The translations under genes were made by a program, and so were the position numbers. Below are positions 28,839 through 62,733 of a stretch of DNA of 64,000 bases, one piece after another. Within the stretch, counting starts at the first letter, position 1. The number at the start of each line of letters is the position of its first letter. The notes below the pieces were generated by a model, which was not told the DNA's origin, searched no databases, and saw nothing but the letters and a program-made list of their open reading frames with translations. Source of the DNA: Strigamia acuminata (taxonomy: Eukaryota; Arthropoda; Chilopoda; Geophilomorpha; Linotaeniidae); assembly GCA_949358305.1 (NCBI GenBank), contig OX442315.1, forward strand, positions 3,596,001 through 3,660,000, given 5' to 3'.

Positions 28839-29211
28839 TCATTGGAACTCTTGTGTTATGTGCTCGGCACTTGCATCGCTTCCGGTCGCGACGGCCCAAT
28901 TGAGAATTTCTTTCAAGTTGACCATACCGTCTTTGGTGACAGTGTCCAACTGGGTGAGAACTTCTTCGTCTGTCATGTTCGTTCCAGACTGCAGTAGGTC
29001 GGAATTGAATCTATTTGACGCTCTGAAGTGGCAATGTGGTTTACAACCACTCCCGGCTTGGCACTTGCAAGAACAACAGGTTAAGATGTCGCATTGTTTG
29101 TCCAAGCAGCACTCCTGGATTGAGCATTCGTTGCACGGAACTTTTTTTGGACAATTGTCAGCTAAGACTAATGTCAAAAGGAAGATGATACACTTGTACT
29201 ACAAGTACATC
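28839..29211 (-). pseudogene. Cys-rich secreted-protein gene copy, left palindrome arm
   Basis: On the minus strand an open frame encodes a hydrophobic leader (IIFLLTLVLAD), then a compact cysteine cluster (CNECSIQECC, LDKQCDILTCCSCKC, GCKPHCHF), then an acidic tail with MTDEEVLTQLDTVTKDG. The only upstream in-frame ATGs (near 29211) are followed after a few codons by a TAG, so this copy has no intact start. Cysteine spacing is unlike families I can name; metallothionein-like or secreted small proteins are possible. The arm pairs with the copy at 29200-29458. Confidence 0.6.
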
Positions 29212-29458
29212 ATCTTCCTTTTGACATTAGTCTTAGCTGACAACAAATGAGAAAAAATGACCAAAAATGTTCCGTGCAACGAATGCACAATCCAGGAGTG
29301 CTGCTTGGAAAAACAATGCGACAGCTTAACCTGTTGTTCTTGCAAGTGCCAGGCCGGGAGTGGTTGTAAACCACATTGCCACTTCAGAGCGTCAAATACA
29401 AGTAGATTCATTTCTGACCTACTGCAGTCCAGAATAACGAACAAGACAGACAGACGAA
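28960..29458. repeat. Near-perfect 0.5-kb palindrome (fold-back) of the Cys-rich gene
   Basis: Left arm about 28960-29198 and right arm about 29200-29458 are reverse complements at roughly nine of ten positions, with essentially no spacer (centre ACTTGTACTACAAGT). A transcript across it would fold into a hairpin of more than 200 bp. Confidence 0.9.
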
Positions 29459-29740: not shown

Positions 29741-30676
29741 CCTGCCAAGAACTAATCGGCCAATTCTACCAAAAGCACTGTTCTTAGTACTTCCCTTAGG
29801 CCGTAGAGCACGTTTTTTGGGACAAATACGAGCTCAAACGGTCCGAAATTGGTGAAACTACCGCCTGGAACGTGGCGCATTCGTCGGGTGGCTCTAAGAG
29901 GCGATCCAATCGAACCGAAGCCATATAACGATGACGACGGCAGAAAAATACGTTTTTCTATGTGGAAACCAAATAAATCCCGATGGGGATTTAAGTGAAG
30001 GCTAGTGTAGGCTTAAGTTGCCCAAATCAGTGCAGAACAAAGGAAAACAAAGACAAAGCAGCCGACGCCCGCAAAGATTCAAGATGGCGGATCGCCAGAC
30101 TCATCAACTGCTCGCGACCACTTCTAACGTCGTTTTCGGGGTCGTGAGTCCCGAAAACGACCAAACTAAGTAGCGGGATCGACTCCCAGAGGTCGAATTG
30201 GTCTGTGTCGACCGAAAACAGCCCCAACGAACCAACTTTCGAGGAGATAATCGCCTCATTCGACTCATTCTGCTCTGAGCAGACGACGCAACGAAATTGG
30301 CGTGCTGAAACTGGACTTAAAACCATTGGAGAACTAACTTTTAAGCGGATTTGAAGTAAACTGATTTGGCAGACTAACCCCAAATATAAGAGACTAATTG
30401 CTGGGCTTTTGCTAGCCCCAGCGGAATGAAATGAAGGCTGTTTGGACGGCGCATTGACCATTGGCAACACACTATGGTGTGCCAACACGAAACGAACCGA
30501 AATGCGAGTGTTTTGGACTCGAATAAGTTCATGGGTCTTACGGGGTTGAAATAACTAAAGTTTTGGTTATCCCCTAGTTTGTGGTTATTTTTGACAATGG
30601 CAAAAGTGCCCTTTTTGGGTGCAAGTGTGCCCTTTTTGTGTGCAAGTGCCCTTTTCGGGTGCAAAAATGCCCTTTC
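29741..30676. other. Intergenic
   Basis: I see no supported gene. There is a perfect short hairpin CGTTTTCGGG/CCCGAAAACG at about 30132-30160. At 30597-30680 there are four direct repeats of GTGCCCTTTTTGGGTGCAA type. The 154-codon open frame on the minus strand at 30027-30488 has no recognisable motif. Confidence 0.4.
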
Positions 30677-30776
30677 AATGAATTCAGTAAAATTTTGGAC
30701 AAAAATTTAACACATGCAGTAAATTTTGGCCAACTTTCAAGAATTTGCCACTGTGTTTAGAAGAAACAATATGCTG
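30677..30776 (+). repeat. Direct repeat upstream of Aurora hairpin 1
   Basis: About 100 bp beginning GAATTCAGTAAAATTTTGGAC and ending in TTTGCCACTGTGTTTAG recur at about 31592-31690 ahead of hairpin 2. The hairpin loci therefore arose by duplication of a larger unit. Confidence 0.8.
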
Positions 30777-31066
30777 AATACTGTAGTTCTGCATGACCAA
30801 TTACATTATCCAAATAATTTCTTGCAGAAAACGATGGAAGTACGATGACTTCGAGATTTTTCGACGTTTAGGAAGTGCTAATGTTTATCTCGCCCGAGAG
30901 AAATCAACGTTATCTCGGGCGAGATAAACATTTCCATTTCCCAAACGTCGAACAATCTCGAAATCATTGCACTTGCATCGTTTTCTGCAAAAATATAATT
31001 GTGTGAATAATTACAGTTTTATTTCATATTTGGATAATGTAATTGGTCATGCAGAACTACAGTATT
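30777..31066. repeat. Aurora-kinase inverted repeat 1 (hairpin)
   Basis: Left arm 30777-30899 and right arm 30913-31066 are inverted copies of the 3' end of an intron plus the start of an Aurora-kinase exon. Read outward-to-centre, each has an intron end (TTTCTTGCAG or TTTTCTGCAG type), then codons for KRWKYDDFEIFRRLG and ANVYLARE (left) or KRCKCNDFEIVRRLG and NVYLARE (right). The loop is 13 nt. The right arm has about 30 extra bases. Confidence 0.88.
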
Positions 31067-31590
31067 AATTAACCCTAACCTAATGGTTGTTGGCCAAGAA
31101 TGGAAATCCCTCCAAACAATGTCTGCTTGGCAAGATCAGAAACTCCCACTGTTAGAGATGCTAACAGCAAGAATATCTCACAAGTGGCTCTGCACTTTGC
31201 AAGAAAGAGTCTAAATACTCAGGCAATCTTTCACCCAAATCTGCTTGAAGAATTGTGTTTCCCAGGATAGATTTTGATGACTTGTTGCTCTCAGTGTTCA
31301 GTTCAGACTGAGGAGTTTTTTCACTCCTCACAGGAAGTGTTTCCTGCTCCAGGAGGTTGCGGGCTGGTTTCCCTGGCGACCACCCACAATTCCTCCCACC
31401 CTGCCTAACTCCCTTTATCTAGACAGGAAATCATAAAAAATAATACACAATAAAATAAAACAATCTCAAATTAAATATTTTATTTCGGGCTCATTCCCGA
31501 TACTTCATTAGTGACCACTAGGGTCACTACAAGTGTAGTGGCATAACTGAGTGAGTTTCAACAAAACTAGAATATTCTGGACAAATTTCA
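31067..31590. other. Sequence between the two Aurora hairpins
   Basis: It contains a 58-codon open frame from an ATG at about 31099 with no recognised motif. Then comes a GC-richer block (31290-31430), an AATAAAATAAA polyadenylation-like stretch (about 31450) and TTTCGGGCTCATTCCCGA, which together resemble the end of an LTR. I could not define its limits or a partner copy. Confidence 0.35.
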
Positions 31591-31744
31591 ATGAATTCAG
31601 TAAAATTTTGGACAAATTTTAACAAATGCAGTAAATTTTGGCCAACTTTCAAGAATTTGCCACTGTGTTTAGTAACAATATATGCCTCTGCTGAATACAT
31701 CCAAATATGAAAACTTTAATTATTCAAATTATTATTTACTTGTA

Positions 31745-32262
31745 GGTGTCGAAAGGTGTGGATAAAGAAAACGATGTGAAATCAAAAACTGACGTCGCAA
31801 GTAATAAAATGTCAAATGACGGCAACGCTTTGATTAGGGATTCGCCCAACCATGCTGGAAAGACGAACCGAACTGCCTATAGGTAAGGCTTAATAGTTCT
31901 GCACGACAAATTACATTATGCAAATATGAAAAGTTTAATTATTCAAATAATTTTTTGCAGAAAACGATGGAAGTGCAATGATTTCGAGATTGTTCGACGT
32001 TTAAGAAGTGGTAATGTTTATCTCGCCCAAGAGAAATCAACGTTCTCTCGGGCGAGATAAACATTTCCATTTCCCAAAAGTCGAACAATCTCGAAATCAT
32101 TGTACTTCCATCGTTTTCTGCAAGAAATTATGTGAATAATTAAAGTTTTCATATTTGGATAATGTAATTGGTCATGCAGAACTACAGTATTAACCCTTAC
32201 CTAATGGCAGTTCGGTTCGTCCTTCCAGCAGCTTGAACATTATTAGAAGAATCCCTAAGCGG
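31745..32262 (+). repeat. Aurora-kinase inverted repeat 2 (hairpin) with upstream exon
   Basis: A spliceable exon starts after TTACTTGTAG at 31745 and encodes KGVDKENDVKS and NHAGKTNRTAY, ending at a GTAAGG donor (31882). An intron follows, then at 31961 an exon with KRWKCNDFEIVRRL and GNVYLAQE. The left arm (about 31826-32034) is then repeated inverted at about 32045-32262, including the donor and part of the upstream exon. Arms are about 210 bp, the loop about 10 nt. No complete kinase is encoded. Confidence 0.88.
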
Positions 32263-33149
32263 CAACGTGTTTATGTTTAACCTTCCCATAGCCAAGCCTA
32301 GTTTCCACCATTGCTAGCTAAGGTCGGTCAAATCGGCCTTCTTTTAAAATGCTTCTGCGCATGTGCAGAATCACATTTTTCCTGGTGCAATCGCATTTTT
32401 CCTGGTAAAAGCACATGTTTTAGGACTAATTTTAATACGCCACCTAGTGCAAACAGATGGCAAAGCAGTGTACGGCGCTCCCATTAAGGGTGTTTTATGT
32501 TATAAATATTAAATTATCTTAATAATAATTGAAAAACTATTTGTATTTAGACATTATAAAATAAGAAAAAAAAGTTTTTGAGGAATACAAGTTAACCTCA
32601 TTAATTAATTATCAAAAAAAAAAGAATTACAGTGATTTTTCCACTTCTGTAATTTTTTTGACCTACCATGGCTATGGGAAGGTTAATTCAGTCAAATTAC
32701 ACAGGTTAAATACAAAGATAATCAGCCCTGATTGGCTGTTACACAAAACGTTCGCTGGACGTATCAACAATGCGTGTGGAAGGTCCGCGCGCCCTCTTGC
32801 GACGTATTGGCGGCACCCCGCCATCTTCAGAAATAGCAGCACCAACTTAGATAGGCTTTTGCCTGTAAATGACAATTTGTTGCCAGCACTGGAATAATAC
32901 GAATAATGCCAAACGTTAGCCGGCACGTGTGATGTATGAATGGACATTTTTTGTTTTTCGTAGATTCGACGGATGAAAATGTCGATTCTTCTAATTCCTG
33001 TTTCACATACGTTTTAGCAATCTTTCGAATTGCTCGTTCTTTCCTTTTAAGATGCATGCTAGTTGTTTGTGCACTGCATGTTTGCTAGTCTGTTTGTGAA
33101 AATGCATTTTTTGTTGTTGGCTTTGCCTAAAAAACAAATTTCGCAGACA
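32263..33149. other. Intergenic
   Basis: No gene is supported. AT-rich between 32500 and 32640, otherwise unremarkable. It ends with the GACA target site (33146-33149) of the next retroelement. Confidence 0.4.
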
Positions 33150-45482: not shown

Positions 45483-45993
45483 TGTCACGCGGTTGAGTTG
45501 CGTCGTCTGCCGACCAGCTCAAACCAGCGCTAGAATTGAAGAAGTTGTTAAAAGTTATCACTAGCCAGCGTACGTGATGGTGACATCACGGGCTGGTCAA
45601 TCTGGATTAACTCAGGGGGTGACTCTAGTATAAAAGAGCCACTTTGGCTCTTAGAGCTCAGTCCATCCCGGGCTTCTAAACAGTTAGCACCAGCCAGCAA
45701 ATGGCGTGGTGTGATTGTTTCCCTCCAAATTGAATCAAAGTGTTAATCATATCTTAGAGTATTTATTAGGTTTAGTTTAGATTTAGTTTCACATTTTGTA
45801 TTTATGATTTAAGTGTTTTGATTTAAAGAATAAAGACACTGTATTGTTTTCAATCTTAAACTCTGGCTTTGTTTCATTTCACTCTTAGTTAATTAAGTCA
45901 CTCTTTAGCTCAGCTAGTATTAGTGAAGCTAAAGTAAAGTAAAAAACTAGTAATAAGTTACGTGGTCATTATTGGCCATTTGGCCACGTAACA
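45483..45993 (+). repeat. LTR copy 1, array element
   Basis: 511 bp, TGTCACGCGG to CACGTAACA. TATA box AGTATAAAAG at about 45628-45637; AATAAA at 45829-45834. Its left edge is a genuine insertion border with ATAT before it. Confidence 0.93.
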
Positions 45994-47312
45994 ATATGGA
46001 CGAATTGAGTAGCGTTGTAACTCCGGCCCCAGTGTGAAAACTGGAGTTTTAGAGAAGCGAGCGGTCATACGAGTTCGAGGGGAATGGCACGGTGTAGCGC
46101 AGAGAAGTCAACATGCAGGAGGTGTTTTTGTGCGATTTTAGGTGACGCGTGACCGGAAGTGCTATAAAAGTGTCATGAATTCCTACATTTTGGATATCTA
46201 AAAATGATTTTTTTAGTGTAAAAACTAGGGTTTTAGTGTATTTCAATTTTGTATTAAATTGGTGTTGGGAATATTTGGGTTTTTATTGTAATCTGTTTTA
46301 ATTGCCTTCTGTGAATTTTTGAAGGGAAAACCCGAGTCTTTGTTGTTTCTAATTTTCACCAGATGTGGTGACGTTTTCATATTGTTTTGGGTCTGTGACC
46401 TTTTTGACTTTTTGTTCTCTTTTTCCGAGAACTAATTATTTTGTGTGTTTTGTTCTTGTTTCCAAGAACTAATTATCTCATGTATTTAACATCGTTTTTC
46501 AACGAAAATAAACCAGTACAACATTTTCACTTTACCCAAGCAGGACTGCTCTTGTTGAGCAGTTAGAATTTATTTGTATTCACACACTGAAAAAGAACTT
46601 AGACATTTTCGAAACCTGAACCAACTGAATTTACATCAAAAAGAGAACTTTCAACATTTATAATTTGGGATTTTCACATTTAGTTGTTTTGGCGAAATTC
46701 TGTTTAAAAAAATTTATTCTCACTTGCATCGACATGCAGCACATGCCGTTAAAAACGGGGTATATCGGCATGACGGTATAACTCGCACTATACCGGCATG
46801 CGGCTTAATGTGAGTTAATGCGGTACGGGTATGGAGCATACGATACGATGGACATAACTTTATTAGCTTTTCACGCTTACAAGTTAGTTAATAAGAAAAG
46901 TCCTACGTAAGGTTCAACTGCAAATCCAAATTTTTCGTTTTGACATAACTTTCGATTTCAACAAAAGCTGACGCGTTATTAATATTACTACAAGTACAAA
47001 GTACAAACACGATGAATAATTGATTCAATGCATTTGGCATTTCCAACAATTTCATAATCAAATTGAAAGTAATCAAAGTTAGGGCATGCGCATTCGACTC
47101 AACAAGCACCAAAATTAAATCATCGCAAAATTGTTCACTCAAAAAGACCAATTTTTCTAAACTCTGCACCTGATTGATTAACGATGTAGTTATCGTCTAG
47201 ATCACTTTTTCTTTTGGTTTTTAAGGATCGCAATCGGCGCCATTTTGCCGAAAGTTCATGTTGCCAATAGCGTCATGGCAAAAAGCGTCCATCGTACGTT
47301 TGTCCTGTGACT
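45994..47312. repeat. Captured host block A, copy 1
   Basis: Identical to 52595-53913 and 59196-60514. Its first bases are the target site ATAT. It contains a minus-strand LRR gene remnant, probable host promoter sequence and, at its right end, the first 18 codons of the LRR gene reading frame (ATG at 47258). At 47313 it is joined to gag-like sequence. Confidence 0.9.
46903..47169 (-). pseudogene. LRR gene 3' fragment in block A, copy 1
   Basis: About 88 codons on the minus strand (SLEKLVFLSEQFCDDLILVL, then LITFNLIMKLLEMPNALNQL) align with the C-terminus of the LRR protein at 61.6-61.9 kb (LETLCIVECGIIFDDLISEL, then IIKLLGMPNPMNEL). It is the end of a diverged paralogue, with nothing upstream of it. 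Confidence 0.8.
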
Positions 47313-47616
47313 ACAATACTAACAATAACAATAATAGTAATAATAATAATACTCGATCTTGTGGATGCTATCATCACTTTACTTGCGAGTTTTATAATCC
47401 ACCAAGGTACCAACAGGATAGAGGTGGTACTGCTGGAAGACCAAGAAGACGTAGAAGAGAAGGTCCTAGCACTACAGTCAACACCCAACAACAGACGGAA
47501 AACTGAGAAGTCGGCCACAGAGAGATTGTCACCATCCGAATAGAAGTAAGAAGAAAAAGAAGAAAAGATGGAAAAAGGACAACATTACAATAATTGATAT
47601 AAAAATTTCGGAATCA
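47313..47616 (+). pseudogene. Gag C-terminal remnant, copy 1
   Basis: Downstream of the junction the frame encodes an Asn run, SCGCYHHFTCEFYNPP and a basic tail (RPRRRRREG) up to a stop at 47506. The Cys/His cluster may be a degenerate nucleocapsid knuckle. The rest of gag is absent. Confidence 0.5.
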
Positions 47617-50400
47617 TTGTTGGAAATCCCGGTAATTGTAAAGAATTTGGAAATAAAGGCAGTTATGGACACTGGAGCTAAGAAGAACATTTTGAGTGAA
47701 GAGTTAGCAGAAATATTACAGTTGGATTATCAACCTACACCTAACGTTAGATTACGAGGAATAGGAACTGATTTAATAACTCCAGTGGGTAAAACAAATT
47801 TGAACATTCAAATAGGACAATTGCAGTATTCAGTAGAAGTATTGATAGTTAGAAGTTTCAATTACCAACTTTTATTGGGGGATCCATTTATGACTTTTGC
47901 GAGGTGTGTTGTTGATTACGATTTACAAAAAATCTTTGTGGGCCGAAAAAGTGGATTAGAAGCAGTTTTCCCGATGAATAAGACATATGTGGACCAGAAT
48001 TACGTAGCAAGAATGACAAAAGGTATAGCAATTCCACCAATGCATGAATGTGCAGTTCCAGTTAATTTAAGCACAGCTTTAACGACAGAAATGTTTTTGG
48101 AACCTTTAGGAAATGTAATCGATAGGTTTGGTATTATCTGTTGTAAGACGTTAACAAAGTTTGAAAACGGCAAAGGCGTAATACGAGTGGCAAATCCAAC
48201 ATCTAAGTCCATTTTTCTACAGGAGAAGTCTGCAATTGGTAAGGCACATTATATTATTGATATTGGGTTGGTGGATGAAAAACAAGCAAATTGTTTTGAC
48301 TCTAACTCCCCACGTTCTAAGGTTGTTGAGTTGTTGAATGAAAAACAAGCAAATTGCTTTGATTTTGACTCCGCAATAGCCAAAGATAAGATGACTAAGA
48401 ACCAACAGCAACAATTGAAGCAGTTACTCCAGAAGAATCAGGACAGATTTGCCATGTCAGATAAAGACTTAGGAAGAGTAACCAACTTTAGTCATAAAAT
48501 TGATACAGGTGACCATGAAACTATTCACTTGCAGCCGTATAGACGTTCAATTGCAGAAAAAGAAGTAGAAGCTGAGGAAACCAGAAAATTGTTAGAACAA
48601 GGAGTCATAAGGGAATCAGAAAGTCCATGGAGCGCGCCAGTCTTGCTCATCAAGAAAAGAGACGGTAAATGGAGGTTTTGTGTTGATTGGAGGAGGTTGA
48701 ACGCAATTACAAAGAAAATGGTGTACCCACTACCAAGAATAGATGACACTTTAGATCAACTAGCAGGGGCCCAGTTTTTCTCGATGATGGATTTAATCCA
48801 AGGATACCATCAAGTTGAAATAAATGAACAAGACCGAGAGAAGACAGTGTTCACTACTTCAACCGGACACTATGAATTTAATGTCCTAGGAATGGGGTTA
48901 TGTAATAGCCCAGCCGCGTTTCAAAAATTGATGAATAAAGTATTGGGCAACCTCCTTGGAAAGGTCTGTATAGCCTATCTTGACGACCTTATAATTTTTT
49001 CTAAAACATTTGAACAACATTTACAAGATCTGGACTCAGTCTTTGAAAAACTGCGAATTGCGAATTTAAAGGTAAAGCTAAGCAAATGCACTTTCGGGAC
49101 GGATACCATTAGGTATCTCGGACACGTGATTGATTCAGAAGGCATTTCACCAGATCCACGAAATCTCGAGTCTGTAGCAAAGTTTCCAATTCCATTAAAT
49201 GTGAAGCAGTTAAGGGGATTTTTGGGTTTGTGCTCATATTATAGAAAATTCATTTTAGGATTTGCTGATATTTCCAAACCCTTGGTCAACCTTACGAAGA
49301 AAGACGAGAAATTCGACTGGGGACCGCCTCATGAAGAAGCATTTAAACAACTAAGAACAGCTTTGGTAACAGTGCCAGTTTTGGCTCATCCTAATTTTGC
49401 ACAGCCTTTCATCATATCAACGGATGCAAGCGCTTATGGTTTGGGAGCCATTTTGAAGCAAAAGCTTAACAACCAAGAGCATGTGATTTGTTATGCTAGT
49501 AGGTTATTGAGCAATGCTGAACAGAACTATAACGCGACAGAAAGAGAATGTCTGGCCATATTGTTTGGCATACAGAAATTTCGCCCTTATTTGTATGGAA
49601 AGAAGTTTACCATCATCACGGACCATTCAGCACTTCAATGGCTGAAAAGCGTCAAAAATCCAAATGGTAGGTTAGCACGATGGAGTCTGCAGTTGGTTGA
49701 CTATGATTATGAAGTACAGCATAAGTCAGGCAAGAAACATACAGATGCCGATGCGTTAAGTAGGATTCCGGAGGACATTAGTGAAGAAGAAGTAATTATT
49801 CCTTCATTATTGCTCGAAAATCTCGATTTACCTGCAGAGCAGCGTAAAGATCAGAAGATTATGGAACTCATCACATCACTGCAGACAATAGAGCAACTTC
49901 CGCGCAAAAGAAGACGTCCGCTACAGCAGTACGTACTTCAAGGCGATATTTTGTTTAAGAAGAAGAAATTTAATTCCTTGAACACGGAAGAATTACTGTA
50001 TATTCCACAGCATTTGAGAAAAGATGTTTTAGTAGAAATGCATGATGGTCTTACAGGCGCTCATTTAGGCCTGAGTAGAACTTGGAAGAAAATTAGAACA
50101 CGTTTCTTCTGGCCAAGGATTTATAGGGACGTAAGGAATTACGTACTCTCATGTCCGAAGTGTGCAAGTGCAAAAACCATGACAACACCGCCAAAAGGAT
50201 TGATGCAGCCGTGGTCGACAGTGTCTCGACCATTCGAACGAGTAGCCATAGACACGTTAGGCAGTTTTCCAACATCTGGCACAGGAAACAAGTACGTTTT
50301 CATTATTACGGATTATTTATCACGCACTGCAATAGCTAGAGCAGCACCAGCTTGCACAGCTATTGAAGCAGCGAATGCCCTTGTTTATAAGTCATGCTGA
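47617..50400 (+). pseudogene. Pol part 1 (PR, RT, RNase H, start of IN), copy 1
   Basis: 927 codons; the frame is open upstream without an ATG, so it was part of a longer polyprotein. Protease VMDTGAKKNIL near residues 16-27, RT with FCVDWRRLNAITKK and YLDD at 454-457, RNase H with STDASAYGLGAIL near 600, ADALSRIP, integrase HHCC site from His809, and the first core aspartate in RVAIDTLGSF. It ends at a stop after ANALVYKSC, inside the integrase core. It is a Gypsy family distinct from element 1. Confidence 0.9.
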
Positions 50401-51413
50401 AAGAAGGAAGCCCACGAGAGATTCTGAGTGATAAGGGAACAGAATACAGAAATGAAATGATTAAGGAAATATCTGCATTGTTTAAGTCCCTTCACAAATC
50501 CACTTCCGGATACCATCCAAGAACAAACGGTCTTACGGAAAGATTTAATGCGACAATAGCTAAAATGTTGCAGAGTTATGTAAATAAAGATCATACTGAT
50601 TGGGACGCATTTTTGCCATTTCTTCTTTTCTCTTATAACACTGGAGTCCATGAAACAACAGGTTACACTCCGTATTATTTATTACGAGGTTATGAAGCAG
50701 ATCTCAACGTGGATGCCAACTTAAATCTTCCTCGTAAGGAATTCACTTTGCGAACTTCCAGATTTATCAGGGAGGCAAGGAGAATTGCCAATGAAAGAAT
50801 ACAAGAACAAGGTTTAAAAAGCAAGAAAAGGTTTGATTTGGACAGAGTACATGTGGAATTCGATCCAGGAGAGCTAGTTTATTTGAAAACACCAAATAGA
50901 AAGGTTGGTTTAAGTGAAAAGCTCTTGCCACAATTCTCTGGGCCATATGAGATCGTACGACGAACAGCGCCAAATGACTACGAAATTCGAAGTTCATCAG
51001 GCAAAAAGATGGACATTGTGAATATAGAGCGACTGAAACCGTACAAAATGAGAGAAGAACTTTCAGAAGACATTACGAGGCCTTTAACATCTAAAAAAGT
51101 TACATTTGCGGAGGATTTGAAAGAAGTAGACAGCGGAAATGAAATTATCGTGGACAACAACGTAAATTCGTCAAACAAACCTATTTCTGCAGCTACGGAA
51201 CGTTTCATTGACGACGACGATCAAATATCGTTGCGAGGCTTATTCGAGAACGAACTTCCGGCGGAAAATGAGGAAAATCAACTTCCGAAACCGTCACCAG
51301 GCGTCGCAAGTGCGGTCGACAACGACGCGCATGCGCGACCACCTGAAGTTGGCAGTTTCCGGTCACGCCGTCTACGCAAACAGGCACGGCGCGATTACAC
51401 TACATTCTACTGA
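50394..51413 (+). pseudogene. Pol part 2 (integrase C-terminal half), copy 1
   Basis: 339 codons in another frame, overlapping part 1 by 7 bases. It carries the second and third integrase catalytic residues (SDKGTEY and NGLTERFNA), then a C-terminal domain with FDPGELVYLKTPNRK and FSGPYEIV. The D,D-35-E core is thus split over two frames by a small deletion. The identical break in copy 2 shows that it predates the duplication. Confidence 0.9.
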
Positions 51414-52083
51414 ACTTTTTCAAAGGGAACACAAGCATATTGTTGTGACCGGAGAAAATTTTCAATTGAAGTTAACAACTTGATATTTAGAGAGCTCGTG
51501 TGTGACAGTACGTATTATTAAACAATTGAAATTGAAGATTTAATAGAGCAGAAATTTGGAAAGTTTGTAAACGAAATTAACACGGATAATTTTCAAGAAG
51601 CTATCTGGTGGACCGAGACTACATGCGCCATGCGCATCCAATTCATCTACGCCACCGGATTCTGTACGAGTTGCATCAGAAGGCTTTGGAACCATTCGAA
51701 GAAGAAAAAGAGAAGCTAAAAGCTCCTCTTCCATGAACTTTTAATTTTGAATACTTTGTTTTTTTTTGTGTATTTTAATTTGAGATATAAATCTCATATT
51801 TTTATATAGAAAATGTTAGAAAACCCGAAGAAATAAAAAAGTAATATAAAAGAGTAGAAAAATCCAAAAAGTGTTATTTTGAAGAGTAAAGTGTTGAATT
51901 TCATTGTAATTTTTGTTTTTGGAAAAGTTGAATTTTGTTTTACTTTGTAAAAGATATGATTAACACTGGGGTGGGACTCATATATTTGATTATTTTCTTT
52001 AAGGTATGATTAGCATATAAAATAATTGGCTTAAATTCTAAAGTACTGTGGTTTTTGGAGACCAAAAAATTTAAAGAGGGGGC
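51414..52083 (+). other. 3' non-coding region and polypurine tract, copy 1
   Basis: Contains a short open frame fragment with RHRILYELHQKALEPFEEE-type coding near 51630-51736 but no supported gene. AAAGAGGGGG (52074-52082) directly before LTR 2 is the polypurine tract. Confidence 0.6.
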
Positions 52084-52594
52084 TGTCACGCGGTTGAGTT
52101 GCGTCGTCTGCCGACCAGCTCAAACCAGCGCTAGAATTGAAGAAGTTGTTAAAAGTTATCACTAGCCAGCGTACGTGATGGTGACATCACGGGCTGGTCA
52201 ATCTGGATTAACTCAGGGGGTGACTCTAGTATAAAAGAGCCACTTTGGCTCTTAGAGCTCAGTCCATCCCGGGCTTCTAAACAGTTAGCACCAGCCAGCA
52301 AATGGCGTGGTGTGATTGTTTCCCTCCAAATTGAATCAAAGTGTTAATCATATCTTAGAGTATTTATTAGGTTTAGTTTAGATTTAGTTTCACATTTTGT
52401 ATTTATGATTTAAGTGTTTTGATTTAAAGAATAAAGACACTGTATTGTTTTCAATCTTAAACTCTGGCTTTGTTTCATTTCACTCTTAGTTAATTAAGTC
52501 ACTCTTTAGCTCAGCTAGTATTAGTGAAGCTAAAGTAAAGTAAAAAACTAGTAATAAGTTACGTGGTCATTATTGGCCATTTGGCCACGTAACA
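52084..52594 (+). repeat. LTR copy 2, array element
   Basis: Same as LTR copy 1, shifted by 6,601 bp. It serves as 3' LTR of the first pol unit and 5' LTR of the second. Confidence 0.93.
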
Positions 52595-53913
52595 ATATGG
52601 ACGAATTGAGTAGCGTTGTAACTCCGGCCCCAGTGTGAAAACTGGAGTTTTAGAGAAGCGAGCGGTCATACGAGTTCGAGGGGAATGGCACGGTGTAGCG
52701 CAGAGAAGTCAACATGCAGGAGGTGTTTTTGTGCGATTTTAGGTGACGCGTGACCGGAAGTGCTATAAAAGTGTCATGAATTCCTACATTTTGGATATCT
52801 AAAAATGATTTTTTTAGTGTAAAAACTAGGGTTTTAGTGTATTTCAATTTTGTATTAAATTGGTGTTGGGAATATTTGGGTTTTTATTGTAATCTGTTTT
52901 AATTGCCTTCTGTGAATTTTTGAAGGGAAAACCCGAGTCTTTGTTGTTTCTAATTTTCACCAGATGTGGTGACGTTTTCATATTGTTTTGGGTCTGTGAC
53001 CTTTTTGACTTTTTGTTCTCTTTTTCCGAGAACTAATTATTTTGTGTGTTTTGTTCTTGTTTCCAAGAACTAATTATCTCATGTATTTAACATCGTTTTT
53101 CAACGAAAATAAACCAGTACAACATTTTCACTTTACCCAAGCAGGACTGCTCTTGTTGAGCAGTTAGAATTTATTTGTATTCACACACTGAAAAAGAACT
53201 TAGACATTTTCGAAACCTGAACCAACTGAATTTACATCAAAAAGAGAACTTTCAACATTTATAATTTGGGATTTTCACATTTAGTTGTTTTGGCGAAATT
53301 CTGTTTAAAAAAATTTATTCTCACTTGCATCGACATGCAGCACATGCCGTTAAAAACGGGGTATATCGGCATGACGGTATAACTCGCACTATACCGGCAT
53401 GCGGCTTAATGTGAGTTAATGCGGTACGGGTATGGAGCATACGATACGATGGACATAACTTTATTAGCTTTTCACGCTTACAAGTTAGTTAATAAGAAAA
53501 GTCCTACGTAAGGTTCAACTGCAAATCCAAATTTTTCGTTTTGACATAACTTTCGATTTCAACAAAAGCTGACGCGTTATTAATATTACTACAAGTACAA
53601 AGTACAAACACGATGAATAATTGATTCAATGCATTTGGCATTTCCAACAATTTCATAATCAAATTGAAAGTAATCAAAGTTAGGGCATGCGCATTCGACT
53701 CAACAAGCACCAAAATTAAATCATCGCAAAATTGTTCACTCAAAAAGACCAATTTTTCTAAACTCTGCACCTGATTGATTAACGATGTAGTTATCGTCTA
53801 GATCACTTTTTCTTTTGGTTTTTAAGGATCGCAATCGGCGCCATTTTGCCGAAAGTTCATGTTGCCAATAGCGTCATGGCAAAAAGCGTCCATCGTACGT
53901 TTGTCCTGTGACT
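52595..53913. repeat. Captured host block A, copy 2
   Basis: Identical copy of 45994-47312, again beginning with ATAT and ending at the junction with gag-like sequence. The first 18 LRR codons start at 53859. Confidence 0.9.
53504..53770 (-). pseudogene. LRR gene 3' fragment in block A, copy 2
   Basis: Identical to the fragment at 46903-47169. Confidence 0.8.
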
Positions 53914-54217
53914 ACAATACTAACAATAACAATAATAGTAATAATAATAATACTCGATCTTGTGGATGCTATCATCACTTTACTTGCGAGTTTTATAATC
54001 CACCAAGGTACCAACAGGATAGAGGTGGTACTGCTGGAAGACCAAGAAGACGTAGAAGAGAAGGTCCTAGCACTACAGTCAACACCCAACAACAGACGGA
54101 AAACTGAGAAGTCGGCCACAGAGAGATTGTCACCATCCGAATAGAAGTAAGAAGAAAAAGAAGAAAAGATGGAAAAAGGACAACATTACAATAATTGATA
54201 TAAAAATTTCGGAATCA
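53914..54217 (+). pseudogene. Gag C-terminal remnant, copy 2
   Basis: Identical to 47313-47616; read from the LRR ATG at 53859 it gives the same 82-codon chimeric frame ending at 54107. Confidence 0.5.
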
Positions 54218-57001
54218 TTGTTGGAAATCCCGGTAATTGTAAAGAATTTGGAAATAAAGGCAGTTATGGACACTGGAGCTAAGAAGAACATTTTGAGTGA
54301 AGAGTTAGCAGAAATATTACAGTTGGATTATCAACCTACACCTAACGTTAGATTACGAGGAATAGGAACTGATTTAATAACTCCAGTGGGTAAAACAAAT
54401 TTGAACATTCAAATAGGACAATTGCAGTATTCAGTAGAAGTATTGATAGTTAGAAGTTTCAATTACCAACTTTTATTGGGGGATCCATTTATGACTTTTG
54501 CGAGGTGTGTTGTTGATTACGATTTACAAAAAATCTTTGTGGGCCGAAAAAGTGGATTAGAAGCAGTTTTCCCGATGAATAAGACATATGTGGACCAGAA
54601 TTACGTAGCAAGAATGACAAAAGGTATAGCAATTCCACCAATGCATGAATGTGCAGTTCCAGTTAATTTAAGCACAGCTTTAACGACAGAAATGTTTTTG
54701 GAACCTTTAGGAAATGTAATCGATAGGTTTGGTATTATCTGTTGTAAGACGTTAACAAAGTTTGAAAACGGCAAAGGCGTAATACGAGTGGCAAATCCAA
54801 CATCTAAGTCCATTTTTCTACAGGAGAAGTCTGCAATTGGTAAGGCACATTATATTATTGATATTGGGTTGGTGGATGAAAAACAAGCAAATTGTTTTGA
54901 CTCTAACTCCCCACGTTCTAAGGTTGTTGAGTTGTTGAATGAAAAACAAGCAAATTGCTTTGATTTTGACTCCGCAATAGCCAAAGATAAGATGACTAAG
55001 AACCAACAGCAACAATTGAAGCAGTTACTCCAGAAGAATCAGGACAGATTTGCCATGTCAGATAAAGACTTAGGAAGAGTAACCAACTTTAGTCATAAAA
55101 TTGATACAGGTGACCATGAAACTATTCACTTGCAGCCGTATAGACGTTCAATTGCAGAAAAAGAAGTAGAAGCTGAGGAAACCAGAAAATTGTTAGAACA
55201 AGGAGTCATAAGGGAATCAGAAAGTCCATGGAGCGCGCCAGTCTTGCTCATCAAGAAAAGAGACGGTAAATGGAGGTTTTGTGTTGATTGGAGGAGGTTG
55301 AACGCAATTACAAAGAAAATGGTGTACCCACTACCAAGAATAGATGACACTTTAGATCAACTAGCAGGGGCCCAGTTTTTCTCGATGATGGATTTAATCC
55401 AAGGATACCATCAAGTTGAAATAAATGAACAAGACCGAGAGAAGACAGTGTTCACTACTTCAACCGGACACTATGAATTTAATGTCCTAGGAATGGGGTT
55501 ATGTAATAGCCCAGCCGCGTTTCAAAAATTGATGAATAAAGTATTGGGCAACCTCCTTGGAAAGGTCTGTATAGCCTATCTTGACGACCTTATAATTTTT
55601 TCTAAAACATTTGAACAACATTTACAAGATCTGGACTCAGTCTTTGAAAAACTGCGAATTGCGAATTTAAAGGTAAAGCTAAGCAAATGCACTTTCGGGA
55701 CGGATACCATTAGGTATCTCGGACACGTGATTGATTCAGAAGGCATTTCACCAGATCCACGAAATCTCGAGTCTGTAGCAAAGTTTCCAATTCCATTAAA
55801 TGTGAAGCAGTTAAGGGGATTTTTGGGTTTGTGCTCATATTATAGAAAATTCATTTTAGGATTTGCTGATATTTCCAAACCCTTGGTCAACCTTACGAAG
55901 AAAGACGAGAAATTCGACTGGGGACCGCCTCATGAAGAAGCATTTAAACAACTAAGAACAGCTTTGGTAACAGTGCCAGTTTTGGCTCATCCTAATTTTG
56001 CACAGCCTTTCATCATATCAACGGATGCAAGCGCTTATGGTTTGGGAGCCATTTTGAAGCAAAAGCTTAACAACCAAGAGCATGTGATTTGTTATGCTAG
56101 TAGGTTATTGAGCAATGCTGAACAGAACTATAACGCGACAGAAAGAGAATGTCTGGCCATATTGTTTGGCATACAGAAATTTCGCCCTTATTTGTATGGA
56201 AAGAAGTTTACCATCATCACGGACCATTCAGCACTTCAATGGCTGAAAAGCGTCAAAAATCCAAATGGTAGGTTAGCACGATGGAGTCTGCAGTTGGTTG
56301 ACTATGATTATGAAGTACAGCATAAGTCAGGCAAGAAACATACAGATGCCGATGCGTTAAGTAGGATTCCGGAGGACATTAGTGAAGAAGAAGTAATTAT
56401 TCCTTCATTATTGCTCGAAAATCTCGATTTACCTGCAGAGCAGCGTAAAGATCAGAAGATTATGGAACTCATCACATCACTGCAGACAATAGAGCAACTT
56501 CCGCGCAAAAGAAGACGTCCGCTACAGCAGTACGTACTTCAAGGCGATATTTTGTTTAAGAAGAAGAAATTTAATTCCTTGAACACGGAAGAATTACTGT
56601 ATATTCCACAGCATTTGAGAAAAGATGTTTTAGTAGAAATGCATGATGGTCTTACAGGCGCTCATTTAGGCCTGAGTAGAACTTGGAAGAAAATTAGAAC
56701 ACGTTTCTTCTGGCCAAGGATTTATAGGGACGTAAGGAATTACGTACTCTCATGTCCGAAGTGTGCAAGTGCAAAAACCATGACAACACCGCCAAAAGGA
56801 TTGATGCAGCCGTGGTCGACAGTGTCTCGACCATTCGAACGAGTAGCCATAGACACGTTAGGCAGTTTTCCAACATCTGGCACAGGAAACAAGTACGTTT
56901 TCATTATTACGGATTATTTATCACGCACTGCAATAGCTAGAGCAGCACCAGCTTGCACAGCTATTGAAGCAGCGAATGCCCTTGTTTATAAGTCATGCTG
57001 A
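54218..57001 (+). pseudogene. Pol part 1, copy 2
   Basis: 927 codons, identical in translation to the copy at 47617-50400, including the stop inside the integrase core. Confidence 0.9.
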
Positions 57002-58014
57002 AAGAAGGAAGCCCACGAGAGATTCTGAGTGATAAGGGAACAGAATACAGAAATGAAATGATTAAGGAAATATCTGCATTGTTTAAGTCCCTTCACAAAT
57101 CCACTTCCGGATACCATCCAAGAACAAACGGTCTTACGGAAAGATTTAATGCGACAATAGCTAAAATGTTGCAGAGTTATGTAAATAAAGATCATACTGA
57201 TTGGGACGCATTTTTGCCATTTCTTCTTTTCTCTTATAACACTGGAGTCCATGAAACAACAGGTTACACTCCGTATTATTTATTACGAGGTTATGAAGCA
57301 GATCTCAACGTGGATGCCAACTTAAATCTTCCTCGTAAGGAATTCACTTTGCGAACTTCCAGATTTATCAGGGAGGCAAGGAGAATTGCCAATGAAAGAA
57401 TACAAGAACAAGGTTTAAAAAGCAAGAAAAGGTTTGATTTGGACAGAGTACATGTGGAATTCGATCCAGGAGAGCTAGTTTATTTGAAAACACCAAATAG
57501 AAAGGTTGGTTTAAGTGAAAAGCTCTTGCCACAATTCTCTGGGCCATATGAGATCGTACGACGAACAGCGCCAAATGACTACGAAATTCGAAGTTCATCA
57601 GGCAAAAAGATGGACATTGTGAATATAGAGCGACTGAAACCGTACAAAATGAGAGAAGAACTTTCAGAAGACATTACGAGGCCTTTAACATCTAAAAAAG
57701 TTACATTTGCGGAGGATTTGAAAGAAGTAGACAGCGGAAATGAAATTATCGTGGACAACAACGTAAATTCGTCAAACAAACCTATTTCTGCAGCTACGGA
57801 ACGTTTCATTGACGACGACGATCAAATATCGTTGCGAGGCTTATTCGAGAACGAACTTCCGGCGGAAAATGAGGAAAATCAACTTCCGAAACCGTCACCA
57901 GGCGTCGCAAGTGCGGTCGACAACGACGCGCATGCGCGACCACCTGAAGTTGGCAGTTTCCGGTCACGCCGTCTACGCAAACAGGCACGGCGCGATTACA
58001 CTACATTCTACTGA
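56995..58014 (+). pseudogene. Pol part 2, copy 2
   Basis: 339 codons, identical in translation to 50394-51413. Confidence 0.9.
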
Positions 58015-58684
58015 ACTTTTTCAAAGGGAACACAAGCATATTGTTGTGACCGGAGAAAATTTTCAATTGAAGTTAACAACTTGATATTTAGAGAGCTCGT
58101 GTGTGACAGTACGTATTATTAAACAATTGAAATTGAAGATTTAATAGAGCAGAAATTTGGAAAGTTTGTAAACGAAATTAACACGGATAATTTTCAAGAA
58201 GCTATCTGGTGGACCGAGACTACATGCGCCATGCGCATCCAATTCATCTACGCCACCGGATTCTGTACGAGTTGCATCAGAAGGCTTTGGAACCATTCGA
58301 AGAAGAAAAAGAGAAGCTAAAAGCTCCTCTTCCATGAACTTTTAATTTTGAATACTTTGTTTTTTTTTGTGTATTTTAATTTGAGATATAAATCTCATAT
58401 TTTTATATAGAAAATGTTAGAAAACCCGAAGAAATAAAAAAGTAATATAAAAGAGTAGAAAAATCCAAAAAGTGTTATTTTGAAGAGTAAAGTGTTGAAT
58501 TTCATTGTAATTTTTGTTTTTGGAAAAGTTGAATTTTGTTTTACTTTGTAAAAGATATGATTAACACTGGGGTGGGACTCATATATTTGATTATTTTCTT
58601 TAAGGTATGATTAGCATATAAAATAATTGGCTTAAATTCTAAAGTACTGTGGTTTTTGGAGACCAAAAAATTTAAAGAGGGGGC
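58015..58684 (+). other. 3' non-coding region and polypurine tract, copy 2
   Basis: Same as 51414-52083; the polypurine tract lies at 58675-58683. Confidence 0.6.
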
Positions 58685-59195
58685 TGTCACGCGGTTGAGT
58701 TGCGTCGTCTGCCGACCAGCTCAAACCAGCGCTAGAATTGAAGAAGTTGTTAAAAGTTATCACTAGCCAGCGTACGTGATGGTGACATCACGGGCTGGTC
58801 AATCTGGATTAACTCAGGGGGTGACTCTAGTATAAAAGAGCCACTTTGGCTCTTAGAGCTCAGTCCATCCCGGGCTTCTAAACAGTTAGCACCAGCCAGC
58901 AAATGGCGTGGTGTGATTGTTTCCCTCCAAATTGAATCAAAGTGTTAATCATATCTTAGAGTATTTATTAGGTTTAGTTTAGATTTAGTTTCACATTTTG
59001 TATTTATGATTTAAGTGTTTTGATTTAAAGAATAAAGACACTGTATTGTTTTCAATCTTAAACTCTGGCTTTGTTTCATTTCACTCTTAGTTAATTAAGT
59101 CACTCTTTAGCTCAGCTAGTATTAGTGAAGCTAAAGTAAAGTAAAAAACTAGTAATAAGTTACGTGGTCATTATTGGCCATTTGGCCACGTAACA
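58685..59195 (+). repeat. LTR copy 3, array element
   Basis: Last LTR of the array. It is followed by ATAT (59196-59199), which matches the ATAT before LTR 1, so this is the true right end of the original insertion. Confidence 0.93.
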
Positions 59196-60514
59196 ATATG
59201 GACGAATTGAGTAGCGTTGTAACTCCGGCCCCAGTGTGAAAACTGGAGTTTTAGAGAAGCGAGCGGTCATACGAGTTCGAGGGGAATGGCACGGTGTAGC
59301 GCAGAGAAGTCAACATGCAGGAGGTGTTTTTGTGCGATTTTAGGTGACGCGTGACCGGAAGTGCTATAAAAGTGTCATGAATTCCTACATTTTGGATATC
59401 TAAAAATGATTTTTTTAGTGTAAAAACTAGGGTTTTAGTGTATTTCAATTTTGTATTAAATTGGTGTTGGGAATATTTGGGTTTTTATTGTAATCTGTTT
59501 TAATTGCCTTCTGTGAATTTTTGAAGGGAAAACCCGAGTCTTTGTTGTTTCTAATTTTCACCAGATGTGGTGACGTTTTCATATTGTTTTGGGTCTGTGA
59601 CCTTTTTGACTTTTTGTTCTCTTTTTCCGAGAACTAATTATTTTGTGTGTTTTGTTCTTGTTTCCAAGAACTAATTATCTCATGTATTTAACATCGTTTT
59701 TCAACGAAAATAAACCAGTACAACATTTTCACTTTACCCAAGCAGGACTGCTCTTGTTGAGCAGTTAGAATTTATTTGTATTCACACACTGAAAAAGAAC
59801 TTAGACATTTTCGAAACCTGAACCAACTGAATTTACATCAAAAAGAGAACTTTCAACATTTATAATTTGGGATTTTCACATTTAGTTGTTTTGGCGAAAT
59901 TCTGTTTAAAAAAATTTATTCTCACTTGCATCGACATGCAGCACATGCCGTTAAAAACGGGGTATATCGGCATGACGGTATAACTCGCACTATACCGGCA
60001 TGCGGCTTAATGTGAGTTAATGCGGTACGGGTATGGAGCATACGATACGATGGACATAACTTTATTAGCTTTTCACGCTTACAAGTTAGTTAATAAGAAA
60101 AGTCCTACGTAAGGTTCAACTGCAAATCCAAATTTTTCGTTTTGACATAACTTTCGATTTCAACAAAAGCTGACGCGTTATTAATATTACTACAAGTACA
60201 AAGTACAAACACGATGAATAATTGATTCAATGCATTTGGCATTTCCAACAATTTCATAATCAAATTGAAAGTAATCAAAGTTAGGGCATGCGCATTCGAC
60301 TCAACAAGCACCAAAATTAAATCATCGCAAAATTGTTCACTCAAAAAGACCAATTTTTCTAAACTCTGCACCTGATTGATTAACGATGTAGTTATCGTCT
60401 AGATCACTTTTTCTTTTGGTTTTTAAGGATCGCAATCGGCGCCATTTTGCCGAAAGTTCATGTTGCCAATAGCGTCATGGCAAAAAGCGTCCATCGTACG
60501 TTTGTCCTGTGACT
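59196..60514. promoter_or_regulatory. Host block A in its native place: upstream region of the LRR gene
   Basis: This copy runs without a break into the LRR gene at 60515, so it is the original. It should hold the LRR gene promoter; a TATAAAA word occurs at about 59365. It also carries the minus-strand LRR remnant at 60105-60371, a palindromic GCCGGTATA/TATACCGGC-type cluster at about 59945-60005, and AAGAACTAATTA repeats near 59630-59680. Confidence 0.7.
60105..60371 (-). pseudogene. LRR gene 3' fragment in block A, copy 3 (native)
   Basis: Original copy of the minus-strand LRR remnant. It lies head-to-head with the intact LRR gene, suggesting an old inverted duplication of the gene followed by decay. 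Confidence 0.8.
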
Positions 60515-61932: not shown

Positions 61933-62185
61933 TAACAATAATCAAACATTGTGCATTGTTGAATGTGGAATAATTTTCGACGATTACGTATATTACGTAT
62001 ACGTAATGCAACAACTAAATCTCGCCTCAATTCTCGCTTAATCTCGCCTCAATTCTCGATTTTCAAGTGAAATTCAAATGATAAACTGTGTTTTCTCGAG
62101 AAAAAAGGAGTTTTCAAGTGAAAAAATGGAAAAAGTGGAAAAATAACTTTATTTATACAGGTAAATGAAAAAAAGTACAGAAAAT
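61933..62185. repeat. LRR gene 3' flank with partial self-duplication and satellite
   Basis: Bases 61945-61985 repeat 61644-61686 of the LRR coding region (ACATTGTGCATTGTTGAATG and onward). Bases 62010-62060 hold two to three units of the 22-bp satellite. Bases 62060-62130 match the sequence that follows the same satellite at 14.15 kb. AATAAA words for the minus-strand mini-gene lie near 62146 and 62190. Confidence 0.7.
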
Positions 62186-62733
62186 TTATTTCACATAATT
62201 AAAATGACAGTTTGAAGTAAAAAGTGGATAAATTATTGTGAAACTGGCTTGACACCGTTGCAATTCTTTATGCATTGCTGCTGCTCCATTACCAGCGTAT
62301 TCCAAAATGAGATAAACTCGGGTCTCGTCGTAAAAATAGCCAAACAGACGAAGGATATTACGATGCCTGTAAAATATATATAATATTGAGATTATTTTAA
62401 TACTACAATGCTGTCTACAGACTTTAAATTTGCCTGGTTTTTGACTTCCCGACGTAATCGATAGTCCGCTTGCGCTTCTTCCAGTTTAATTTTACTTAAC
62501 ACTTTCAACACTACTTTAAATTTTTTTGTATTCTCTCGGGCGAGATAAACATTTTCGGATTTTTCTTTTCCCAAAGTTCGAACAATCTCGAAATCATCCA
62601 ACGTCCATCGTTCACTGGAAAAAATTATTTGAATAATTAAAGTTTTCATATTTGGATGTAAGTTATTAACCCCTTACCTATCGGCAGTTCGGTTCGTATT
62701 TCCAGCAGCTTGAACATTATTAGAAGAAGCCAT
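62186..62733 (-). CDS. Aurora-kinase N-lobe mini-gene
   Basis: Three exons on the minus strand, 62733-62678, 62614-62423 and 62366-62186, with GT-AG borders and continuous phase, give 142 residues from ATG to stop. After a short N-terminus comes [14 protein letters not shown] and NVYLAREN, then [50 protein letters not shown] and KELQRC. These match the Aurora N-lobe from the beta-1 strand to the hinge. The glycine loop GKGKFG is changed to GKEKSE, while the beta-3 lysine and alpha-C glutamate are kept. The C-lobe (HRD, DFG, activation loop) is absent, so it cannot be a kinase. Polyadenylation words follow the stop. Alternatively it is a transcribed pseudogene. Related exon fragments form the hairpins at 30.8 and 31.8 kb. 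Confidence 0.7.

Follow-up and report, generated by a model that had tools for sequence, protein, structure and literature searches.

Pseudogenes formed by inverted duplication are a recognised category. The hairpin RNA (hpRNA) loci of flies are described as inverted repeats of fragments of their target genes, often present in several copies and sometimes adjoining the target, and the targets named include the histone kinase ballchen and its derivative Hun (PMC10317233). The genome of the centipede Strigamia acuminata (237,517,015 bases in 157 contigs) carries inverted repeats of comparable build that are made from an Aurora kinase gene, and two of them lie in the window analysed here, a stretch of 64,000 nucleotides at positions 3596001-3660000 of contig C3. 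We infer that this location belongs to chromosome 2, an autosome.

The first-pass annotation had noticed two fold-backs in the window, here called IR1 and IR2, and both inverted repeats are present, far above chance expectation (Table 1). The core of IR1 pairs 30811-30902 with 30910-31001 (92 nt, 85% complementary), and its outer 40 nt (30777-30816 with 31027-31066) are 100% complementary; IR2 pairs 31894-32035 with 32043-32184 (142 nt, 91% complementary) and continues outward (31853-31895 with 32188-32230, 91%) into part of exon 1. The aligned arms of each are separated by 7 nt, in place of the loops of 10-13 nt originally described. Folded as RNA, IR1 (30777-31070) reaches -178.7 kcal/mol (z -25, with none of 200 shuffles as low) and IR2 (31815-32266) reaches -269.6 kcal/mol (z -32, none of 100 shuffles as low); the long inverted repeat folding as an extended hairpin that characterizes hpRNA loci is accordingly present at both as a predicted fold. 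In anatomy, then, the two resemble the hairpin-RNA loci to which they had been likened: a long inverted repeat of a gene fragment with a stable predicted stem. Among the 11 inverted pairs listed for the window (arms of at least 40 nt, distance at most 400), the longest besides IR1 and IR2 is at 29012-29398. No Rfam family matches within the window at gathering score, and a known RNA family was therefore set aside as the identity of the hairpins.

Translated, the left arms give the start of the Aurora kinase domain, preceded by intron sequence. The intron in IR2 retains a GT donor as well as an AG acceptor, the left arm of IR1 holds just part of the intron, and IR1 and IR2 turn back at the same point of exon 2. 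Only about the first 25 codons of the kinase domain are present in the arms; the catalytic part is missing, the glycine loop is shortened and the introns are kept, which are the marks of a duplicated pseudogene. Because intron 1 sequence sits in the arms next to the start of exon 2, they are genomic and not reverse-transcribed; the Aurora origin first proposed holds, and a retrocopy or processed pseudogene is ruled out.

Table 1. Aurora-derived fold-backs, single Aurora copies and neighbouring features (positions in the window unless a contig is named)
Feature	Position	Strand	Content
IR1 left arm	30777..30902	+	partial Aurora intron 1 (30777-30827), then sense exon 2 start (30828-30902)
IR1 spacer, 7 nt	30903..30909	.	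gap between aligned arms
IR1 right arm	30910..31086	-	exon 2, intron 1 and final few bases of exon 1; antisense on + strand
24-nt stretch, IR1 right arm	30913..30936	-	identical in two Aurora genes
Aurora exon 1 in IR2	31746..31882	+	67% protein identity to residues 2-54 of intact gene; splice donor at 31883
Aurora intron 1, IR2 left arm	31883..31960	+	GTAAGG...TTTTTTGCAG
Aurora exon 2 start, IR2 left arm	31961..32035	+	translates as start of Aurora kinase domain
IR2 spacer, 7 nt	32036..32042	.	gap between aligned arms
IR2 right arm	32043..32266	-	exon 2, intron 1 and partial exon 1; antisense on + strand
24-nt stretch, IR2 right arm	32046..32069	-	identical in two Aurora genes
IR3, fold-back (L009)	C3:3.918 Mb		
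IR4, fold-back (L010)	C3:4.293 Mb		
Single Aurora copy L011	C3:24.73 Mb		
Single Aurora copy L012	C3:3.960 Mb		
Single Aurora copy L013	C1:42.681 Mb		
Single Aurora copy L014, decayed	62137..62731	-	within same window as IR1 and IR2
Upstream direct repeat, copy before IR1	30673..30772	+	93% alike to 31586-31681
Upstream direct repeat, copy before IR2	31531..31698	+	found also where no Aurora fold-back exists
Short DNA-transposon-like insert beside IR2	32277..32686	.	perfect 18-nt terminal inverted repeats starting TTAA
Second gene-derived fold-back	29012..29398	.	arms 29012-29198 and 29200-29398; from gene for small cysteine-rich protein

DNA searches of the genome find at least eight Aurora-related places, comprising four fold-backs and four single copies (the queries 30777-31070, which is IR1, and 31700-32300 each returned at least 17 matches, falling at the same eight places), and the fold-back copies thus number at least four where two loci had been reported. 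All four fold-backs lie within 3.63-4.29 Mb of chromosome 2, a span of 0.67 Mb. Three of the single copies (L011, L012 and L013) have open kinase exons, and one (L014) is decayed. L011 is an intact Aurora-A gene, with intron 1 between exon 1 and exon 2 as in the arms. Among animal relatives of the Aurora protein, the one from S. maritima scores best (P0002; 91% identity across 98%), and a second S. maritima name is absent among the 120 listed of 7985 protein matches, some of the listed matches being nameless. L011 and L013 read as six-exon kinases, the start of L013 exon 1 being a guess; exons 2-6 of L012 form a single open frame with AG and GT borders, and no in-frame placement was found for its exon 1. 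L012 and L013 are additional Aurora-A copies with open kinase exons, and L012 differs from L011 by a change of F to S in the glycine loop and of W to C after DFG. A search of the genome with the Aurora protein gave 130 matches (124 scored of 338 candidates), mostly to other kinases, and included two Aurora exon fragments, 71 and 74% identical, at C3:3.234 Mb.

The four fold-backs share a history. A 9-nt deletion in the glycine loop is common to 8 of 8 arms and occurs in none of the 4 single copies. A tree of the core (98-108 positions) divides arms from genes with a support of 96, and the four left arms from the right arms plus the genes with a support of 91; among the right arms, the branching order has weak support (34, 46). 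Because the deletion is in all arms and the left arms group together, it appears that a single copy, altered beforehand, underwent one fold-back and that the hairpin was copied afterwards, in agreement with the original view that the hairpin unit had been duplicated. IR1 and IR3 are the closest pair, their right-arm cores being identical over 99 positions and their left arms differing at 2 of 98. The left arm of IR2 has the right-arm base at three core sites, which suggests exchange between its arms, a reading that so few sites do not make secure.

A plausible sequence of events would begin with a duplicate of Aurora-A on chromosome 2 that lost 9 nt of glycine-loop codons. A broken or stalled end within exon 2 may then have folded back and been copied, which would have produced an inverted repeat whose arms lie 7 nt apart. 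Segmental duplication would later have carried this hairpin, together with some of its flanks, to four or more places at 3.63-4.29 Mb, a pattern that is observed, by a route that we infer; the arms now seem to be drifting apart. Any RNA transcribed from such a locus would form a long stem, a possible substrate for Dicer, and siRNAs of the right arm from one 24-nt stretch could in principle target Aurora mRNAs. We consider it fairly probable that these loci are a decaying fold-back pseudogene family amplified by segmental duplication, in which an Aurora-directed role of the hairpins is most likely no longer kept.

Comparison of the four loci shows how far pairing and coding have been maintained. 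Not one of the 92 pairs of the core has changed on both sides; 74 are invariant, 4 vary on one side and 14 are only broken (4 in one copy, 5 in two, 2 in three and 3 in all four). The core thus holds no compensating change, although four related sequences give little material for a covariation test and such a signal is not required of young hpRNAs. For the full structure of 123 pairs, covariation is not above that of shuffles (406 of 500 reach the observed value, and 500 of 500 do so for pair types); the sole double change, in the outer helix, was given no weight, since IR2 and IR4 align poorly there with the others in their left arms. The true register pairs in 86.5% of cells against 37-44% when slid, as in any inverted repeat. 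The arms within each hairpin have diverged by 9-15%. Several observations count against decay: the predicted stems remain very stable, the outer 40 nt of IR1 are perfectly complementary whereas its core is not, and an exact 24-nt match to two Aurora genes is retained in all four right arms. The perfect outer ends of IR1 and the three right-arm bases of IR2 could be due to inter-arm conversion or to selection.

In the right arms, 0-2 synonymous differences stand against 6-8 non-synonymous overall, and 0 against 6-8 in the comparison with L012. The left arms differ from L011 by 4-5 synonymous changes in about 15 sites and 7-8 non-synonymous changes in about 54 (0.27-0.34 and 0.13-0.15 per site, respectively), and from L012 by 0.13-0.20 synonymous and 0.13-0.15 non-synonymous changes per site; these left-arm rates come from just 2-5 synonymous changes, against 7-8 non-synonymous. 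The codon comparison is low-powered because L011, L012 and L013 differ mutually by only 1-2 synonymous and 1-4 non-synonymous changes. The signal of coding constraint is accordingly mixed, since by count the constraint appears lost in the right arms and its loss is not proved in the left arms. A protein-coding role for the short arm frames is neither supported nor refuted by these mixed counts, and the arms end early in the kinase domain. On balance, the pairing and codon evidence together lean toward drift.

The hairpins could instead be a young hpRNA family, from the transcripts of which a Dicer-2-type enzyme would produce 21-22-nt siRNAs, those of the right arms cleaving Aurora mRNAs, perhaps mainly of the extra copies; we regard this as unlikely. 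Exact antisense matches of siRNA length to a target gene, such as define hpRNA loci, are present: each hairpin matches the L011 transcript over 24 nt, that of L012 over 24-27 nt and that of L013 over 21 nt. Each accordingly holds 4 perfect 21-mers out of 946 for L011, 7-8 out of 866 for L012, the transcript of which was used with a doubtful exon 1, and 1 out of 877 for L013. The first-pass annotation had named arms too diverged to guide cleavage as a finding that would speak against it, and that is not what is found, with exact matches of 21-27 nt surviving to three Aurora genes. In 237.5 Mb of genome, the 24-nt stretch has six exact copies, confined to the four right arms and the L011 and L012 genes, and the reversed control has none. 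When the core differences are shuffled, 1.5-8% of right-arm cases and 1.7-32% of left-arm cases show an equally long run, figures that are not evidence of selection because the 9-nt gap was counted as nine differences and shared descent was ignored. On contigs C1 and C8, three loci encode a complete RNase III domain next to a partial one, as in Dicers, and the form and genesis of the hairpins resemble those described for fly hpRNAs, including the target-gene fragment, the several linked copies and the birth of some near their targets (PMC10317233). Against the hpRNA reading stand the lack of compensating changes in the core and the restriction of exact identity at siRNA length to a single short stretch; among the 98-99 core positions beyond the 9-nt deletion, 8-17 differ between an arm and L011, L012 or L013. 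The location counts against it too: the fold-back locus appears autosomal, and a sex-chromosome link was set aside. About as unlikely is the specific proposition of a lineage-specific centipede hpRNA family, born of a dead Aurora-A copy, that from four loci would silence germ-line Aurora-A (it may be mostly the additional genes of chromosomes 1 and 2) through the 24-nt stretch. RNase III domains also occur on C1, C3, C5, C9, C12, C13, C37 and C145 in nine scattered open frames of 447-588 aa, several of which score identically, as if carried by a repeated element. Both piRNAs and an RNA-dependent RNA polymerase have been reported for S. maritima (PMC11726155, PMC6396948).

We think it very improbable that the hairpins are a mobile element of fold-back or MITE type that picked up part of Aurora and spread by transposition. 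The ends of IR1, perfect over 40 nt, and surroundings rich in transposable elements would suit such an element, but those 40 nt are Aurora intron and continue into exon 1 in other arms, a target-site duplication was not seen at IR1 by eye, all four copies are inside 0.67 Mb of one chromosome, and IR2, IR3 and IR4 have flanking DNA in common. The flank at 32685-33149 is 95% alike next to IR4, and beside IR3 a 129-nt piece of it is 96% alike, with another, 89% alike, about 0.8 kb away from IR3. Terminal repeats of its own, a target-site duplication and dispersal would mark a MITE or fold-back transposon; with arms derived from Aurora, clustered copies and shared flanks, the hairpins were not assigned to that class. 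False palindromes assembled out of fold-back reads are scarcely credible as an explanation: palindromic reads are a known artefact, but the arms of each hairpin differ by 9-15%, and the same junction recurs at four separate loci. The assembly was, moreover, built from HiFi reads and is given a QV of 59.6 (PMC10556566). A decaying pseudogene family copied with its flanks remains the reading that we prefer.

The neighbourhood of the fold-backs contains repeats of several kinds. The same direct repeat was said to precede both fold-backs, and the two copies are indeed 93% alike (30673-30772 and 31586-31681), but the repeat is not specific to the hairpins: in the genome it has at least 10 matches at 9 places, 3 of which adjoin Aurora fold-backs, and the genome search gave no match for it at IR4. 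A common promoter was rejected as its role, since it occurs without an Aurora fold-back and is unmatched at IR4. The transposon-like insert beside IR2 (32277-32686) is absent from the corresponding point beside IR3 and IR4. A 120-bp repeat at 32695-32815 occurs genome-wide, with several same-strand pairs about 3.5 kb apart that resemble the ends of a small retroelement. Elsewhere in the window, three identical copies of a 1514-bp stretch (45799-47312, 52400-53913 and 59001-60514) have pol-type open frames of equal length between them, so that 45799-60514 is apparently a retrotransposon in tandem.

The second gene-derived fold-back of the window, at 29012-29398, arose separately from the Aurora ones. 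It has a 1-nt spacer, pairs over 136 nt at 96% plus 44 nt at 95%, and folds with a z of -39; the open frame at 28839-29198 has no Pfam match. Its relatives give 30 matches at 15 places, of which the other 14 read as single copies, and because four of these relatives, on C3:4.42-4.46 Mb, are 95-97% identical to its left arm, this hairpin is closer to its relatives than the Aurora hairpins are to theirs. A scan of 320,000 bases, consisting of the window and 26 loci (L009-L034) picked as local or Aurora-bearing and not genome-wide, with the 10 kb of L014 repeating parts of the window and of L019, found at least seven short-loop fold-backs: the four Aurora ones, L020 (AT-rich), L029 (transposon-like) and L032. 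This count is a lower bound, since the scan was ungapped and missed the fold-back at 29012-29398. The presence in this region of short-loop fold-backs free of Aurora sequence (L020, L029, L032 and 29012-29398) favours the pseudogene reading. The fold-back of L032 (positions 191-991, C3:3790191-3790991) has 393-nt arms that are 99% alike and a 15-nt loop, and its contents resemble, by eye, a tRNA-derived SINE.

Whichever reading holds, the family catches stages in the birth of a hairpin locus (gene duplication, decay, a single fold-back and copying) while related intact genes are still present, and it lets the fate of becoming an siRNA gene be tested directly against mere decay outside flies, the exact 24-nt match being a specific prediction for small-RNA reads. 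Were the hpRNA reading true, this would be the first hpRNA network known to us outside flies that is directed against a spindle kinase. A published Aurora-derived hairpin was absent among the titles listed in a literature search that used Aurora as a term in part.

Like the hpRNA loci of Drosophila, among which hp58 of D. simulans, the hp-tHMG cluster and hp-CG4068 are described, the Aurora fold-backs are inverted repeats built from part of a protein-coding gene (for hp58, exon 2 of CG17385), and like them they exist in several copies, which in Drosophila may be near the target or far from it (PMC10317233). The Drosophila analogy drawn in the first-pass annotation is limited by the host, a centipede and not a fly, and by a locus that appears autosomal. 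What identifies Drosophila hpRNAs is Dcr-2-dependent siRNAs together with precursor transcripts. The arms of the Aurora fold-backs are 85-91% complementary in ungapped scans, and each hairpin has one exact stretch of 21-27 nt per intact gene. In the pseudogene endo-siRNA loci of mouse oocytes, too, siRNAs directed at a parent gene are described as coming from pseudogene sequence, but there the dsRNA joins a gene transcript to an antisense pseudogene transcript, whereas an Aurora fold-back would fold on itself within one transcript (PMC4335007). With ordinary inverted-duplication pseudogenes, the Aurora fold-backs share an altered gene fragment in head-to-head arrangement, a short spacer and unpaired differences that pile up; unlike them, the Aurora fold-back spread to four loci after folding.
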